This document shows, one piece after another, positions 4,028-28,677 of a stretch of DNA of 32,110 bases (its first letter is position 1; each line of letters begins with the position of its first letter). Both the position numbers and the translations under genes were made by a program. The stretch is from Thermotoga sp. (GTDB lineage: Bacteria > Bipolaricaulota > Bipolaricaulia > Bipolaricaulales > Bipolaricaulaceae), in assembly GCA_020724765.1 (NCBI GenBank), contig DYGJ01000004.1:1-32110 (forward strand), read 5' to 3'. The notes under the pieces are model-generated. The model had not been told where the DNA came from. It saw only the letters and a program-made list of their open reading frames with translations, and made no database searches.

Positions 4028-5026
4028 TCAGGTGAGGGTGGGGAGGCACAGCCCGTCTCGCCCGACGAGGGGCGTGGCGGCGAGGAGGGCGGAGTAGATC
4101 GCCTCCTCGGTGGCCTCTGCGGCTGCCCGATACAGGTTGTCCATTGCCGGTGAGCGATCGGCGATGAACTCCACCGGGTTGCGATCCTGCCCGCGGGGGA
4201 TCCGCCAGCCGGTGGAGAAGGCGACGAAGAAGTCGCCGCTTCCCGTGGTGGCGGGGGCTCCGGTTCGCGCGGCGCCGAGCGCCGCCCGCCGGGCGAGGCG
4301 CGCCAGCTGCTCGGGAAGGAGCGGGGCGTCGGTGGCCAGGACGACGACGAGCGATCCCTTGTCCTCGCTCTCACCCAGCGGTCCCGCCGTTGAGGAGACG
4401 TGGAGGCCGGGCGGGGGGCGGAAGTCCTCCCGACGGCCCATGTTGGGCAGGGCAAGGGCACCCACAATAGACGACCCCACGGCGCGGGAGGCGGTTCCGA
4501 TGCCGGACTTGAACCCGAAGGTCACCGTGCCGGTCCCGGCCCCCACGCACCCTTCGACCACGACCTCCCCAGCCCCGTCCAGGGCCGCCAAAGCATCAGC
4601 CTCGGACACTGGCCGGGTCTCGATCGCCGACAACCGCGCGTCATTGCACTCCAGTACAACCGGGTTCACGGACTTCGCCGCGGGGTAGCGGGCGAGGGTC
4701 CAGGTGATCAGGGCGTCCGCACACCGGGGGACGGCGAGGGTGTTCGTGAGGAGAATTGGCGTCTCCAGCTCCCCGAGGTGGAGGAGCTGCCACAGCCCGA
4801 CTGCCTTCCCGTGACCGTGCAGGACGAACGCCCCGGCGGGGAGCGGTTCTGCGTACAGATCGCCGGGGGGGAGAACCGAGGTGATCCCGGTGCGAACCGC
4901 ACCATTGCCTTCTCCGCGGATGATCGTGGTGTGGCCCACACGAACGCCGGGAACGTCAGCGACTGTTCCCCGCGGCCCAGGAGTGAGCCGACCCACGGAG
5001 TGCCCGGCCTGGCGGAACGCGTTCAC
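4028..5026 (-). CDS. P1 family (DmpA/BapA-type) peptidase
   Basis: DVPGVRVGHTTI...GVTFGFKSGIGTASRAVGSSIVGALALPNMGRREDFR...; typical P1 aminopeptidase layout with GFK.GIGTASR and the candidate self-processing/nucleophile region. Confidence 0.88.
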   Translation of the reverse strand: MNAFRQAGHSVGRLTPGPRGTVADVPGVRVGHTTIIRGEGNGAVRTGITSVLPPGDLYAEPLPAGAFVLHGHGKAVGLWQLLHLGELETPILLTNTLAVPRCADALITWTLARYPAAKSVNPVVLECNDARLSAIETRPVSEADALAALDGAGEVVVEGCVGAGTGTVTFGFKSGIGTASRAVGSSIVGALALPNMGRREDFRPPPGLHVSSTAGPLGESEDKGSLVVVLATDAPLLPEQLARLARRAALGAARTGAPATTGSGDFFVAFSTGWRIPRGQDRNPVEFIADRSPAMDNLYRAAAEATEEAIYSALLAATPLVGRDGLCLPTLT

Positions 5027-6387
5027 CCGTAGAGGAGGAACTCATACGGATGCGGCCGAGCCGCAACCTCGCGGATCTCGGCCTCCTTGACCGCGATCCA
5101 TCGCGCGATGAGCTCGTCGGGGAACACCCCGCCCAACGTGAGGAAGTCGTGGTCCCGCTCCAGGGCGGCGACGGCCTCGCTCAAGCTGCCGGGGAGGGAG
5201 ACGATCTTCCGTCTCCTGTTGGTCCGTGCGTTGAGGCTGTCTTCGACCGGCCCCCAGCCTTTGGCCACCGGGTCCAGTCCCTGACGGATCCCATCCACCC
5301 CGGCCATCGCACACGCGGCCAGCGCGAGGTACGGGTTGCAGGTGGGGTCGGGCGGTCGGTACTCGATCCGGGCTTGGGCAGGGTCGGTGATGTAGCCGGG
5401 GATGCGCACCGCGGCGGTGCGGTTCGCCCGGCCGAACGCGAGGTGGACCGGAGCCTCGAAGCCCGGGCCCAGCCTCCGGTAGGAGTTCGTGGATGGCGAC
5501 ACGAGGGCGGATAGGGCCTGGCCGTGGGCGAGGATCCCTCCCACGTAGTGAAATGCCGTCTCGGAGAGCCCTCCCTCGCTAGAGAACAGGTTCTCGCCCT
5601 TGGCCACGAGGTGCTGGTGGAAGTGGAGGCCGTTCCCGGCTTGGTTGTGCATCGGTTTGGGGAGGAAACAGGCCACGAGCCCTTCCTCGGCGGCGAGGCG
5701 CGAAATCAGATCCATCGCCATGGCGGTCCAATCCGCGGCTTCGAGGAGTCTTCCCAGCCCGAGCTCGATCTCCATCTGTCCGAGCGGGCCTCCCTCGTGG
5801 TGGTGGTAGCGCACTGGGATCCCCCACCGGCTGAGGACTTCCACCACGTACTGGCGCAGGCTGCGGCCGTGATCCTCTGGCCCCCCGGCGTGGTAGCCGG
5901 AGCGGGGCCCCGGCACTGCCCGGGGCCCGATCATCCCCAGCGGGCTCACCTCGACGTGTTGGCCGAGCGGCGTGTCCTCGGTCCACACCGCGTCGAACAG
6001 GTAGAACTCGAGCTCCACTCCGAACCGCGCCTCATCCGCGATTCCCGCACTGGAGAGAAACGCCTCCGTTGCCTTGGAAACGGTCCGCGGGGCCATGGAA
6101 TGAGGCCCTTCGTCCGGACGGGCGAGGTCGCACAGAAGGACCACCGATGGCGGATCACGGGTCGCGTCCACGCGGGCCGTGGCGAGATCCGGCAGGAGGA
6201 CGAGGTCCCCGCTCCCCAGTCCGTAGTGCGAAGCAGCAACTCCTACGCCCTTGGCGAACGTAGCTGGGGTGAGCTCGCCCGCGGGCAGGGTCAAGCAGCG
6301 TAGCCGGCCGAGGAGGTCCGCTGTCCGCAGGTCCACCCAGCGGAGGTCCTCCGCCTGAATCAGGGCGACGAGCTCGCTGAACGTCAT
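5023..6387 (-). CDS. Type I glutamine synthetase homolog (probable glutamine synthetase-like gamma-glutamyl ligase)
   Basis: 454 aa with GVELEFYLFD, HHHEGGPLGQMEIEL, MHNQAGNGLHFHQHL, PSTNSYRRLGPGFEAPV, NRTAAVRIPGY, ARIEYRPPDPTCNPYLALAA, HPYEFLLYG. The 4-bp ATGA overlap with the P1 peptidase gene suggests translational coupling. Confidence 0.92.
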   Translation of the reverse strand: MTFSELVALIQAEDLRWVDLRTADLLGRLRCLTLPAGELTPATFAKGVGVAASHYGLGSGDLVLLPDLATARVDATRDPPSVVLLCDLARPDEGPHSMAPRTVSKATEAFLSSAGIADEARFGVELEFYLFDAVWTEDTPLGQHVEVSPLGMIGPRAVPGPRSGYHAGGPEDHGRSLRQYVVEVLSRWGIPVRYHHHEGGPLGQMEIELGLGRLLEAADWTAMAMDLISRLAAEEGLVACFLPKPMHNQAGNGLHFHQHLVAKGENLFSSEGGLSETAFHYVGGILAHGQALSALVSPSTNSYRRLGPGFEAPVHLAFGRANRTAAVRIPGYITDPAQARIEYRPPDPTCNPYLALAACAMAGVDGIRQGLDPVAKGWGPVEDSLNARTNRRRKIVSLPGSLSEAVAALERDHDFLTLGGVFPDELIARWIAVKEAEIREVAARPHPYEFLLYG

Positions 6388-6396
6388 CTCCTCTCC

Positions 6397-7347
6397 TTAC
6401 GGCTTGGGCAGGGCGAGGTCCGCTGGGCCCCAATCGGACAGCTTGGCTCCGGGGAGCGATGCCTGGACGAGCTCGTGGATGATCTCGGCGTGCTTCACCT
6501 TCTCCCGTCCCCAGTCCGCGAGCATCGCGCCCGGGACCCACGGCTTGTAGAGCGCGCCCGGTCCGACCACACATGCCGGCCCCGGTTCGAGCTTGAAGTA
6601 GCACGGGGAGCAGACCCGGACCATCTCCGGCCCGTCGTAGAACCGGTTGAACCCGCCGAACGAGTCGGTGAGGAAGATATGGAGGTCCATCGGCAGGCGG
6701 ACCGCCTGACGGATCGAGGCCAGCTCCGGCAGGTCGAGGTCCCCCACCGGGTTGAACGTGTTCGCCCCGAGCTGCTCCAGGACTTTGGCCCCGGCAGCGT
6801 TCCCGTGTCCGGCGAACACCGACACCTTGAACACCACGTCCTTCGGCAGATCGCCCTTGGCCCGCATCTGGGACAAGAGCCACAGCAGCCCCTCGTCGAG
6901 GACGAGGAACCCGCGGAATCCGACCTCGACCGCGCGCAGGATGTCGGCGATCACGTAGCGGAGCTGGTCCGAGCCGCGGAACCGCAGGCCGGAGAGGCCT
7001 CCCTCCGGCGTGACGAGCTGGCGGCCCGTGTCCCACCCCGAGCGGGGTCCCGGGGTGAGGATGACCTCTACCTTGGACTCGGCCGCGATCTGGGCGAACT
7101 GCTTCAGCTCCGACCGAGTGAGGAGCGTCGCCCCCATCACCGTGGAGATCATGCGGTGCACGGGGATCTTCCGCTTCTGCGCCTCGTTCACCGTTGCCTC
7201 GAGGACCTCGGGCCGTTCGATCCCGGAGATCTCCATCCGGTACTGTGCCCCATCCGGGAACCGGTGAGGGCTGGCCGGTAGATCGTAGGCATCCCGGCCG
7301 GGAATCCCGTGCTTCTCCATGAGTTCCGCTACCTTTCGCTGATCCAT
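6397..7347 (-). CDS. U32-peptidase-like / TIM-barrel conserved protein
   Basis: MDQRKVAELMEKHGIPGRDAYDLPASPHRFPDGAQYRMEISGIERPEVLEATVNEAQKRKIPVHRMIS...; LVLDEGLLWLLSQM, NPVGDLDLPELASIRQAV. Start at Met 7347 (upstream RBS). 9-nt gap to the GS gene implies an operon. Confidence 0.6.
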   Translation of the reverse strand: MDQRKVAELMEKHGIPGRDAYDLPASPHRFPDGAQYRMEISGIERPEVLEATVNEAQKRKIPVHRMISTVMGATLLTRSELKQFAQIAAESKVEVILTPGPRSGWDTGRQLVTPEGGLSGLRFRGSDQLRYVIADILRAVEVGFRGFLVLDEGLLWLLSQMRAKGDLPKDVVFKVSVFAGHGNAAGAKVLEQLGANTFNPVGDLDLPELASIRQAVRLPMDLHIFLTDSFGGFNRFYDGPEMVRVCSPCYFKLEPGPACVVGPGALYKPWVPGAMLADWGREKVKHAEIIHELVQASLPGAKLSDWGPADLALPKP

Positions 7348-24894: not shown

Positions 24895-25038
24895 TAGTGT
24901 TGGTGGGGTCGCCACTACAGATGGCGGATCTTTGCTAGGGGGTGGCATTCGGAGGCAAAGAAGGCGGTCGGTCAGCTGGGTGTTCGGGTCCCGGGAATGG
25001 CAAGCCTTACAAGCACAGATAAGGGAGAGGAGGGCAGG
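24895..25038 (+). other. Candidate structured 5' leader of the beta-helix gene
   Basis: About 144-nt predicted leader with CGCCA/TGGCG (24910-24914/24922-24926) and TCTTTGC/GCAAAGA (24929-24935/24955-24961) inverted repeats, then GGGAGAGGAGG RBS before ATG 25039. Confidence 0.35.
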
Positions 25039-28000
25039 ATGGCAGGAACAGCGCGATTTGGGTGGCTACTGGCAGGGCTCGCCCTGCTGGTTTCGATCGG
25101 AGGGCTGGCAGCGACATGGCATGTGAACCCTGGGGATGATATCCAGGCCGTAATTGACACCGCGGCGGCGGGGGACACGATTGTCGTCGCCGCAGGGACG
25201 TACAACCTGACCGGAACGATCAACGTAACCAAGATGCTCACCATTCTTGGGGCGCAGGCGAACGTGGATCCGCGGCCCAGCGCGGGTGGGCGAACAGGCC
25301 CAGAGACGTTGTTGACGAGCACCACTACGGTGTTCGACATTCAGGCCCACGACGTTGTGATCAACGGGTTCTCCATCGAGACGAATATCAACAATGCCAA
25401 CACGAACATCATCCACGACAGCAGCACGTCGTTCACCTCTGAGAACGCAACGATCGCCTACAACATCATCACGAACACGGGCTCGACGATGAACGAGGCG
25501 GTCAAGATCCGTTGCGGTGAGGCTCCCGTGATTGCGTACAACTACATCTACAACATCCCGTCGCCCGGCGATGCGATCAACTTCGATCGGGTCACGAATG
25601 GTCGGATCGAATACAACGAGATCTTCAACAGCGGCAGCGAGAATGCTGCTATCTACATCTATGATTCCCAGTACACGTGGATCGTCGGGAACATCGTGGA
25701 TACGACGACGAAGAACGACGGCATCAAGCTGGGGCGGAAGTCCAGCGGCAATGCGACCCTGAGCGGCGGTTGGATTATCGGCAACCTGGTGATGAACACA
25801 GCTCAGGATGGGATCACCGTTTACGCAAGCGACGTGGTGGTTGAAGGCAACACAGTGATGGGCGCAACCACCGAGAACGGTGCGATCTACTTGGCATTTG
25901 GGATCAGCAACATCGTCATCCGCTACAACACGATCGTGGACAACGCGTTGGCCACCGGGAAGTGGGGAACCCCCGGCGGCATCACGATCGGCTCTGCCGT
26001 GAACGCCTCTACGGTGGAGATCTACGGCAACACGATCACAGGGAACTACCCAGTGGACGTGGCCAACATGGCCAGCGGAGCACCGCTCCTCGACGCTACT
26101 GGCAACTGGTGGGGGCAGGACACGGGGCCTCTCGCGGGTCAGATCGCGGGGAACGTGGCCTACAGCCCGTGGCTTGGCAACGAGCCGTCGGAGCCCACGT
26201 GGACGTTCATCGTCGCTCAAGCGGGGCCTGAGCCTAGCCCCGGCTACATCCAGAGGGCAGTCGACCTTGCGCGCGATGGCGACGTAGTCTTTGTGCAGGC
26301 AGGTACGTACGCAGAGAACGTCCAGGTGTACAAGGCGCTCAATCTAATCGGCGACAATGCCAGTATCTCCCCAGCTGCTGGGGCGGCGATCACCCTGCGA
26401 TCGCCAGGCAGCGATGCCTTGGAGGACATGCTGATCTCCATCAACACCTCGGGCGGAGCCTACGGTGTCCTCATCGATGGGGGGCTGTGGGCTCACATCC
26501 CTGGCGAGGACGTTGTGATCGAGAATCTCACGCTTGCTGGGGTTTCGTTGAGCGGCCATGGGCAAGAGGGCTTGGTGATCATGAACGGCGCACAGGTCAC
26601 GGGTCTGTTTGTTGTAGACAGCGCGTTCCTGTATAACCGGGTAGGTTTGGGCATCAGCGGCACGGGCACTGCTGTCGCTGATGCGTCCGTGACCTCCTCC
26701 TTGTTCGTTGAGAACACGCTGCACGGTATTCAGATCCTCGCCGGAGCGGCCGTTGACGGCCTTCTCGTTGCTGGGAGCGTATTCCTCCTTAGCGGAAACG
26801 AGGGCATCAATGTCTCAGGTGGAGCCCAGGTGGACGATCTGGCGGTTCGAGACTCAGCGTTCCTTCTGAATAAGATCGGCATCGGCATCACCGGCGCTGC
26901 AACGCGGGTCGAGGGATTCACCGTGCGAGACAGCGGCTTCGTCGGGCAGGGGCAACACGGGATCTACATCCACGGGGCAACGGTCTCGGATCTCGAGATC
27001 CGCGATACCCAGTTCGCAGGTAGCGTCTACCAGGGCATTCACATTCAGAATGCCACGGTTGACGGAGCTGTCATCGCTGACTCAGTGTTTGAGTTCAGCC
27101 GGTGGGGCCTGCTCATCCGGGGGAGCTCGAACGTAACCGGTCTTCACGTGGTCGGCAACGTCTTCTCGGATCACTCCGAGACAGCCCTCGGACTCTCCTC
27201 GGGCAGTATTTCGGGCGCGCTGATCGACAGCAACACGTTCGTCAACAGCGGCTGGGAGCACATCGATGTCGGCCTTTATTGGATGGGCACGCTAACAGCT
27301 AGTGACATAGAGATCCTCCGAAACTTCTTCGGGCCTGGCACCCAGTGGGCCGCAATCTACGTAGACGGTGACGCAGTGTTTGGCCTGGGCGACGTTGTTG
27401 CTCATTACAACGCATTCAGCACCGGAGCGTGGGGCGTGTTCAACGCTAACGCTGTCACTGTCGACGCAGCCCTGAACTGGTGGGGTGACCCCGATGGACC
27501 GATGCACGCGAGCAATCCCGCCGGAGCAGGAGATCTGGTGAGCGACAGCGTGATCTTCAGCCCGTGGCTGGGGACGAGCCCGGATGGTGACCCGCTCGCG
27601 CCGGGCGTGCAGATCACGGGGCCGATGCTGATCATCGTTGCCCCGGTAGGTCCCGAGCCTGCGGGTGGCTACCTGAACACCGCCATCGCCGGCGCCAACA
27701 CGCTCCCGTTTGCTGACACCATCAGGGTCCGCGAGGGAACGTACGACGCCAGTACGCCGATCACCGGCCCGGTGAGCATCCTCAGTTGCACGAGCTGTCC
27801 GAACCCGACAACCCTTACAGGCGACATGACGTTCGATGCGGCGGGGATCCTCATCGGCCGGATGGGCCAGGGGTTCACGATCCTCGGGGACATCACTGTG
27901 GGTGCAGGGGCGGACGCCTCGACGATCCACATCAACTGGAACGACCTCTTCGGCACAGTCACCAACGACGGAGTGGGCATGCTCGATGCCACCTACAACT

Positions 28001-28677
28001 GGTGGGGCGGCGCCCACCCCAGCGCTCGAACGTTCGGGAGTGTGAACTACGACCCATACCTTCCCAAGCCGGTGTGCGAAGTCTTGGCGTTCATGGAGAA
28101 GCACGGACTGAATCCTGATGAGGCAATCATTGCATTGGGATCCGGGGCACCTAACCATCTTCTGTTCCTTATGTGGCTTGCGGGACGGCTCGGGGTCAGT
28201 GTGACGGATGCCGAGGATCTCGTTGAGGAGTACGGCTCCTCTGCTATCTTGAGCGCTCTGGATCGAACCACAGACTTCGATGACTTCGTGCGACTGCTCC
28301 TCGGGTACGGGGCAGCTCCGGCCGGTGGAGCGGGGATGTTCGTGGATCTCGGTGTGGCGGGTGGCGCGGGATCGTTCCAGGGCCAGACTGTGGATGCCGT
28401 GTATGAGATCGGGCAATCGATCCTCGTTTCGTTCGAGCTTCTGGACTTCCAAGGCAACCCGGTTCTCGGGATCGGTGCCTGGGTTACCTTGATTCAGCTC
28501 CACGAGGACGGCCACCAGACGATCTGGTACTGGGGTGCCACTTACTACAACCCGGAGACCGGCCTGCAGGAGATCTCGATCCCCACAGCAGGACTCCCGG
28601 CGGGCTACTACAACCTGGGCATCGGCTTCAGGGACGGGACCCAGGAACAGATCCTGATTCAGATCGTCGTCGAGTAG
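25039..28677 (+). CDS. Large secreted right-handed parallel beta-helix (NosD/pectate lyase-like) modular protein
   Basis: Signal peptide MAGTARFGWLLAGLALLVSIGGLAATW; three VNPGDDIQAVIDTAAAGDTIVVAAGTY-like openings; many SxFxxNxxGIxI beta-helix coils; three NWWG motifs; C-terminal helical plus Ig-like segments. Preferred start at 25039 (strong RBS) over 24997. Confidence 0.85.
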   Translation: MAGTARFGWLLAGLALLVSIGGLAATWHVNPGDDIQAVIDTAAAGDTIVVAAGTYNLTGTINVTKMLTILGAQANVDPRPSAGGRTGPETLLTSTTTVFDIQAHDVVINGFSIETNINNANTNIIHDSSTSFTSENATIAYNIITNTGSTMNEAVKIRCGEAPVIAYNYIYNIPSPGDAINFDRVTNGRIEYNEIFNSGSENAAIYIYDSQYTWIVGNIVDTTTKNDGIKLGRKSSGNATLSGGWIIGNLVMNTAQDGITVYASDVVVEGNTVMGATTENGAIYLAFGISNIVIRYNTIVDNALATGKWGTPGGITIGSAVNASTVEIYGNTITGNYPVDVANMASGAPLLDATGNWWGQDTGPLAGQIAGNVAYSPWLGNEPSEPTWTFIVAQAGPEPSPGYIQRAVDLARDGDVVFVQAGTYAENVQVYKALNLIGDNASISPAAGAAITLRSPGSDALEDMLISINTSGGAYGVLIDGGLWAHIPGEDVVIENLTLAGVSLSGHGQEGLVIMNGAQVTGLFVVDSAFLYNRVGLGISGTGTAVADASVTSSLFVENTLHGIQILAGAAVDGLLVAGSVFLLSGNEGINVSGGAQVDDLAVRDSAFLLNKIGIGITGAATRVEGFTVRDSGFVGQGQHGIYIHGATVSDLEIRDTQFAGSVYQGIHIQNATVDGAVIADSVFEFSRWGLLIRGSSNVTGLHVVGNVFSDHSETALGLSSGSISGALIDSNTFVNSGWEHIDVGLYWMGTLTASDIEILRNFFGPGTQWAAIYVDGDAVFGLGDVVAHYNAFSTGAWGVFNANAVTVDAALNWWGDPDGPMHASNPAGAGDLVSDSVIFSPWLGTSPDGDPLAPGVQITGPMLIIVAPVGPEPAGGYLNTAIAGANTLPFADTIRVREGTYDASTPITGPVSILSCTSCPNPTTLTGDMTFDAAGILIGRMGQGFTILGDITVGAGADASTIHINWNDLFGTVTNDGVGMLDATYNWWGGAHPSARTFGSVNYDPYLPKPVCEVLAFMEKHGLNPDEAIIALGSGAPNHLLFLMWLAGRLGVSVTDAEDLVEEYGSSAILSALDRTTDFDDFVRLLLGYGAAPAGGAGMFVDLGVAGGAGSFQGQTVDAVYEIGQSILVSFELLDFQGNPVLGIGAWVTLIQLHEDGHQTIWYWGATYYNPETGLQEISIPTAGLPAGYYNLGIGFRDGTQEQILIQIVVE

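Follow-up and report, generated by a model that had tools for sequence, protein, structure and literature searches.

The window, by which we denote the whole stretch of 32,110 nucleotides of DNA analysed here, is part of a 1.70 Mb MAG (84% complete) and encodes a glutamine synthetase (GS) homolog with an altered ammonium site. The question raised by this locus is whether the enzyme of this genus joins glutamate to another amine, or makes glutamine although it lacks a residue considered necessary for this reaction. With a confidence slightly short of even, we favour a gamma-glutamyl ligase acting on a small amine, in a genus that would scavenge its glutamine, over a glutamine synthetase that does without Asp50.

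The GS-like gene, its operon and its active site

The GS open reading frame was located on the minus strand at 5023..6387, with its ATG at 6387 and its stop codon at 5023-5025; the first-pass annotation had the position right and lacked the strand. A Shine-Dalgarno-like GGAGAGGAG (6388..6396, minus strand) was recognized in the sequence immediately 5' of the start. The 454-aa product is a full-length type-I GS homolog: Pfam Gln-synt_C (PF00120) matches over the full length with 317 bits, a beta-grasp N-domain is discernible at a score under its Pfam cut-off, and the closest solved structures are those of bacterial GlnA. Of 449 residues aligned with E. coli GlnA, 164 are identical. With the GlnA equivalog model TIGR00653 the protein scored 357 bits (cut-off 429), compared to 360-400 bits for the Asp-bearing operon orthologs, 438-494 bits for the sister clade discussed below and 729 bits for E. 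coli GlnA; the scores with TIGR03105 (GmaS; 179 bits, cut-off 470) and NF045547 (PuuA; 201 bits, cut-off 650) were also too low. As judged by these curated cut-offs, the protein is neither a GlnA nor a GmaS nor a PuuA.

The gene is the second of three on the minus strand. The first, encoding a TIM-barrel protein of 316 aa (U32L, 6397..7347), ends 9 nt upstream of the GS start, and the third, encoding a peptidase S58 (family P1, DmpA/BapA type; 4028..5026), overlaps the GS stop with its start by 4 nt (GTGA). The order U32L-GS-S58 is maintained across the family. S58 was assigned by PF03576 (310 bits) and the structures 2drh, 1b65 and 3n2w (PDB), and matches beta-peptidyl aminopeptidases and, weakly, ThnT. 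In two orthologs of the genus (L054, L011), its self-cleavage motif TGSGDF reads TESGDF or AESGDF, which alters the residue preceding the nucleophilic Ser. Among the operon genes, none was recognised as encoding an amine-specific transporter, oxidase or regulator. Elsewhere in the window, positions 24997-28677 (plus strand) encode a protein of 1226 aa whose repeated, right-handed-helix-like sequence resembles NosD on visual inspection; no Pfam match was obtained for it at 1e-5.

For the assignment of active-site residues, the GS protein was aligned with E. coli GlnA, whose numbering is used throughout, and 50 homologs. The motif KGVGVAASHYGL...GDLVLLPD aligns unambiguously with EGKMFDGSSIGGW...SDMVLMPD of E. 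coli GlnA and places Ala51 (codon 6235..6237, minus strand) at the position of the ammonium-binding Asp50, confirming the substitution that the first-pass annotation had proposed. The second ammonium-site residue, Ser53, which is provided by the neighbouring subunit, is replaced by His54 (6226..6228, minus strand), and Asn264 by Ala250 (5638..5640, minus strand). Further replacements are Ser63 to Gly60, Glu207 to Arg193, Ser273 to His, and the adenylylation tyrosine Tyr397 to Asn386, and fewer residues lie between position 50 and Asp64 than in GlnA and in the other operon orthologs. Aligned ATP, metal and glutamate residues are all kept, as had been proposed for the glutamate- and ATP-site motifs, and are invariant across the orthologs of the genus; retained are Glu129, Glu131, Tyr179 (Tyr165; 5893..5895, minus strand), Glu212 (Glu198), Glu220, His269, His271, Arg321, the catalytic flap residue Glu327 (Glu311; 5455..5457, minus strand), Arg339, Arg344, Arg355, Glu357 and Arg359. 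The GlnA signature is thus missing at the ammonium site and present at the flap, at Tyr179 and at Glu212.

Within the window's genus (g1), position 50 is Ala in 10 of 11 orthologs, including that of the window, and Pro in one. Pairwise dN/dS values within the genus range from 0.08 to 0.20 and therefore indicate that the protein is under constraint; the value for an Asp-bearing g5 pair is comparable (0.24). As the ten other orthologs of the genus carry Ala (9) or Pro (1) and dN/dS is low, the replacement is neither a chance event nor a sequencing error. Genus g10 also carries Ala; Asp50 is kept in the other intact operon orthologs (g4, g5, g6, g9, g12), in the sister clade and in the canonical GS of the class, and the decayed operon GS of G017 has Glu. 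The change of Ser63 to Gly likewise sets g1 and g10 apart from the remaining orthologs. The GS tree groups g10 with g1 (support 87/90), corresponding to a single loss of Asp50, whereas the tree of U32L and S58 groups g10 with g12 (support 99/96), a grouping that is not rejected for GS in an AU test (p 0.31). Because of this conflict, Asp50 may have been lost once or twice.

Glutamine supply in a genus with a single GS

A PF00120 profile search was performed on the window genome and 59 relatives, with 12 genomes, including that of the window, representing the genus. Exactly one GS was found in 11 of these, among them two single-contig genomes (99% and 96% complete), and none in the twelfth (73% complete). 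The search revealed no canonical glnA in any of the 12 genomes, the two single-contig ones included. This outcome counts against the inference of the first-pass annotation that the protein is not a housekeeping GlnA, as do the roughly complementary distribution of operon and canonical GS described below, as if the two had replaced each other, and the intact Glu327 and Tyr179, two residues that several characterised amine ligases no longer have.

GOGAT (PF01645) is missing from all 12 genomes of the genus and almost entirely from the family. GatB is absent from all 12 and present in 26 of the 28 others of the family; GlnRS is encoded at full length, and in the 73% complete genome split over two contigs. 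The loss of GatB with GlnRS present constitutes a genus-level switch in making Gln-tRNA. A tie between the losses of Asp50 and GatB was ruled out, as g10 has Ala50 yet keeps GatB. GlmS was found in 8/8 genomes of the genus tested, together with one to three class-I glutamine amidotransferase domains per genome tested. As GlnRS and GlmS are present, the genus needs glutamine. GDH domains were detected in 11 of 12 genomes, the exception being the incomplete genome of the window, and all 12 encode polar amino-acid binding proteins.

For Ca. Bipolaricaulis anaerobius, a peptide- and amino-acid-fermenting metabolism without an ammonia importer has been modelled, and amino-acid import with limited amino-acid synthesis described; the model assumes that ammonia enters via the glutamine/glutamate synthase pathway (PMC6092417). 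With almost no GOGAT in the family and the sole GS of the genus lacking the ammonium Asp, this assignment is called into question. GlnRS without GatB or GOGAT, the polar amino-acid binding proteins, and the amino-acid import described for Bipolaricaulis fit the ligase reading, under which the genus would cover its need for glutamine by importing peptides and amino acids.

Where a canonical GS is encoded, U32L and S58 are mostly found without a GS gene between them (L104, L105, L109, L111). In two further genomes with a canonical GS, the operon GS is either reduced to fragments (L107 of G023, 4548-4956) or present as an apparently frameshifted frame in which most catalytic residues are missing (L026 of G017); in G019, operon GS and canonical GS are both intact. 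U32L and S58 without GS were also found in L110 and L112, in incomplete genomes in which no GS was found at all. Only 2-3 independent changes underlie this pattern, which lacks statistical significance: an independent-pairs test had just 2 supported pairs, too few to reach significance, so the distribution is no more than suggestive of mutual replacement of operon and canonical GS.

A close rival, only somewhat less probable than the ligase, is that the operon GS is still the glutamine synthetase of the cell, having replaced the canonical enzyme, with Asp50 lost later because ammonia is abundant in a peptide-fermenting life and with His54, another group or free NH3 compensating. Such an enzyme would explain why it is the only GS in 11 of 12 genomes, why genomes with a canonical GS usually have no operon copy or a decayed one, and why Tyr179, Glu212 and Glu327 are intact; it would supply the glutamine required by GlnRS and GlmS, and GDH indicates that ammonia metabolism exists. 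However, Asp50, which binds and deprotonates ammonium, has been described as strictly conserved in GS (PMC7948447), Ser53 and Asn264 are gone as well, as in amine ligases, and the complementarity is weakened by the few changes underlying it and by G019.

U32L, PanB and the sister clade

U32L matched no Pfam or NCBIfam family at E<=0.001, and its profile no PDB sequences. An AlphaFold2 model built from 52 sequences reached a pLDDT of 88.9 (50 only with 17 close sequences), and Foldseek identified it as a TIM barrel like class II aldolases, U32 peptidase and PanB, with a TM of about 0.5. A contig scan yielded 524 relatives, of which the best 80 are mainly from Bipolaricaulota and Chloroflexota. 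U32L is more conserved than its operon partners.

PanB, at scores over the curated cut-off, flanks U32L(-GS)-S58 in many members of the family outside the genus, and adjoins U32L in many other lineages. As the operon partners are thereby tied to PanB, and as beta-peptidyl and pantetheine hydrolases share the S58 fold, the GS protein could function in pantothenate/CoA-related metabolism as a specialised amide ligase, with a beta-alanine or pantoate-like partner. In addition to the matches of S58 noted above, the order PanB - distant U32L homolog - GS in two f2 genomes would fit such a role. We nevertheless consider it quite improbable: the neighbourhood in the genus is without PanB, the PanB-U32L-S58 cluster can do without GS, the glutamate-site residues are conserved, and no PanC or PanD homologs occur within the extracted loci. 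Least probable of all is a catalytically impaired relic or regulatory pseudoenzyme, as might be suspected from the lost Asp50 and Ser53, the shortened loop, and the decay of orthologs in G017 and G023, given that the remaining catalytic residues are invariant in 11 genus orthologs under the constraint described above and that the decayed copies of other genera look very different from these.

Outside the operon, the most closely related GS clade has kept Asp50 and often misses Asn264. Its members lie near MttB-type methyltransferases in f5, G026 and G037 (L033, L035, L068, L069), in f5 and G026 together with a glycine-betaine importer and in G037 with corrinoid and pterin-binding proteins; these neighbourhoods suggest a GS-like enzyme in quaternary-amine demethylation. 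In several f2 genomes, the sister-clade GS is preceded by a distant U32L homolog of 421 aa (BLAST E 2e-5; L034, L037, L029, L030) that belongs to no Pfam family; it is this protein that stands between PanB and GS in the two f2 genomes mentioned. Separately, a GS of another type directly adjoins panB and panE in G058 (L042, 2007-5458). Many sister-clade genomes also carry a canonical GS, which, together with the neighbourhoods, speaks for descent of the operon GS from a second, amine-related GS.

Comparison with characterised ligases

For the gamma-glutamyl ligase that we prefer, the following course is the most likely. The protein would act as an ATP-dependent ligase of the type-I GS fold from which the ammonium clamp of the neighbouring subunit has been removed, by the replacement of Asp50 and Ser53 with Ala and His and by the shortening of the loop. 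The gamma-carboxyl group of glutamate would be phosphorylated first, as in GS, and then coupled to a small amine, either one different from ammonium or one that arrives without charge, to yield a gamma-glutamyl amide; S58, a P1-type hydrolase, and U32L would process or release the product, in a ligase-hydrolase logic resembling that of PuuA and PuuD.

This reading is based on the replacement of Asp50, Ser53 and Asn264 with the ATP, metal and glutamate residues kept under purifying selection, on comparable site changes in GmaS, PauA7, GlnA4 and GlnA2, and on the operon with an S58 amide hydrolase and the sister clade in MttB/glycine-betaine loci. Several points speak against it: the protein is the only GS-family member in the genus genomes, the operon GS tends to be missing where a lineage has a canonical one, and Tyr179, Glu212 and Glu327 are kept, unlike in PauA7 and GlnA4, with Glu327 missing also from GmaS; the negative result for amine-specific genes in the operon counts against it as well. 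The gamma-glutamyl-amine ligase of the first-pass annotation is therefore upheld in part, by the three replacements, the score below the GlnA cut-off, the hydrolase in the operon, the partial association of the sister clade with quaternary-amine loci and the precedent of Ala in GmaS; the denial of a housekeeping role is unsupported for the sole GS of a genus. For polyamines, which had been suggested as substrates, there is no more support than for other small amines.

The protein resembles E. coli and Salmonella GlnA in fold, length, the ATP, metal and glutamate residues, and in Tyr179, Glu212 and Glu327; it differs in Asp50 (Ala), Ser53 (His), Asn264 (Ala), Tyr397 (Asn) and the shortened Asp50 loop, in scoring under the GlnA cut-off, and in its operon with S58 and U32L. 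A literature search for D50A kinetics yielded nothing usable; enzymes of the same operon with (g5, g12) and without (g1, g10) the Asp form a natural series that bears on the role of Asp50, and on how a GS turns into an amine ligase.

The replacement of Asp50 by Ala has, on its own, a precedent in GmaS of Rhodovulum (PDB 7CQL), where the corresponding residue is Ala48 and methylamine is the preferred amine (PMC7948447); in GmaS, however, Trp takes the place of Glu327, kept here as Glu311. PauA7 and GlnA4 also have no conserved Asp50 (PMC6529630), but lose Glu327 and Tyr179, both of which the window GS keeps. In PuuA of E. coli, Asp50 is replaced by Pro and Asn264 by Ala, and the enzyme works with the hydrolase PuuD, much as the window GS gene sits with that of S58; in the alignment, PuuA has Tyr for Glu327 and no Tyr179, unlike the window GS. 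The gamma-glutamylpolyamine synthetase GlnA2 of Streptomyces has Glu for Ser53 and Pro for Asn264 (PMC8998196), and shares with the window GS the replacement of these two residues and the retained Glu327; it retains Asp50, which the window GS has lost, and its model shows Asp at the position of Tyr179, retained here, although the text of the same paper lists Tyr179 as present (PMC8998196). By alignment, the combination of absent Asp50, Ser53 and Asn264 with present Tyr179 and Glu327 is that of none of GmaS, PauA7, GlnA4, PuuA and GlnA2. It could represent, as we tentatively propose with some doubt, either a sole, essential GS that lacks Asp50 and Ser53 and has rebuilt its ammonia site, perhaps with His54, while keeping Glu327 and Tyr179, or an undescribed gamma-glutamyl-amide pathway of GS, U32L and S58.
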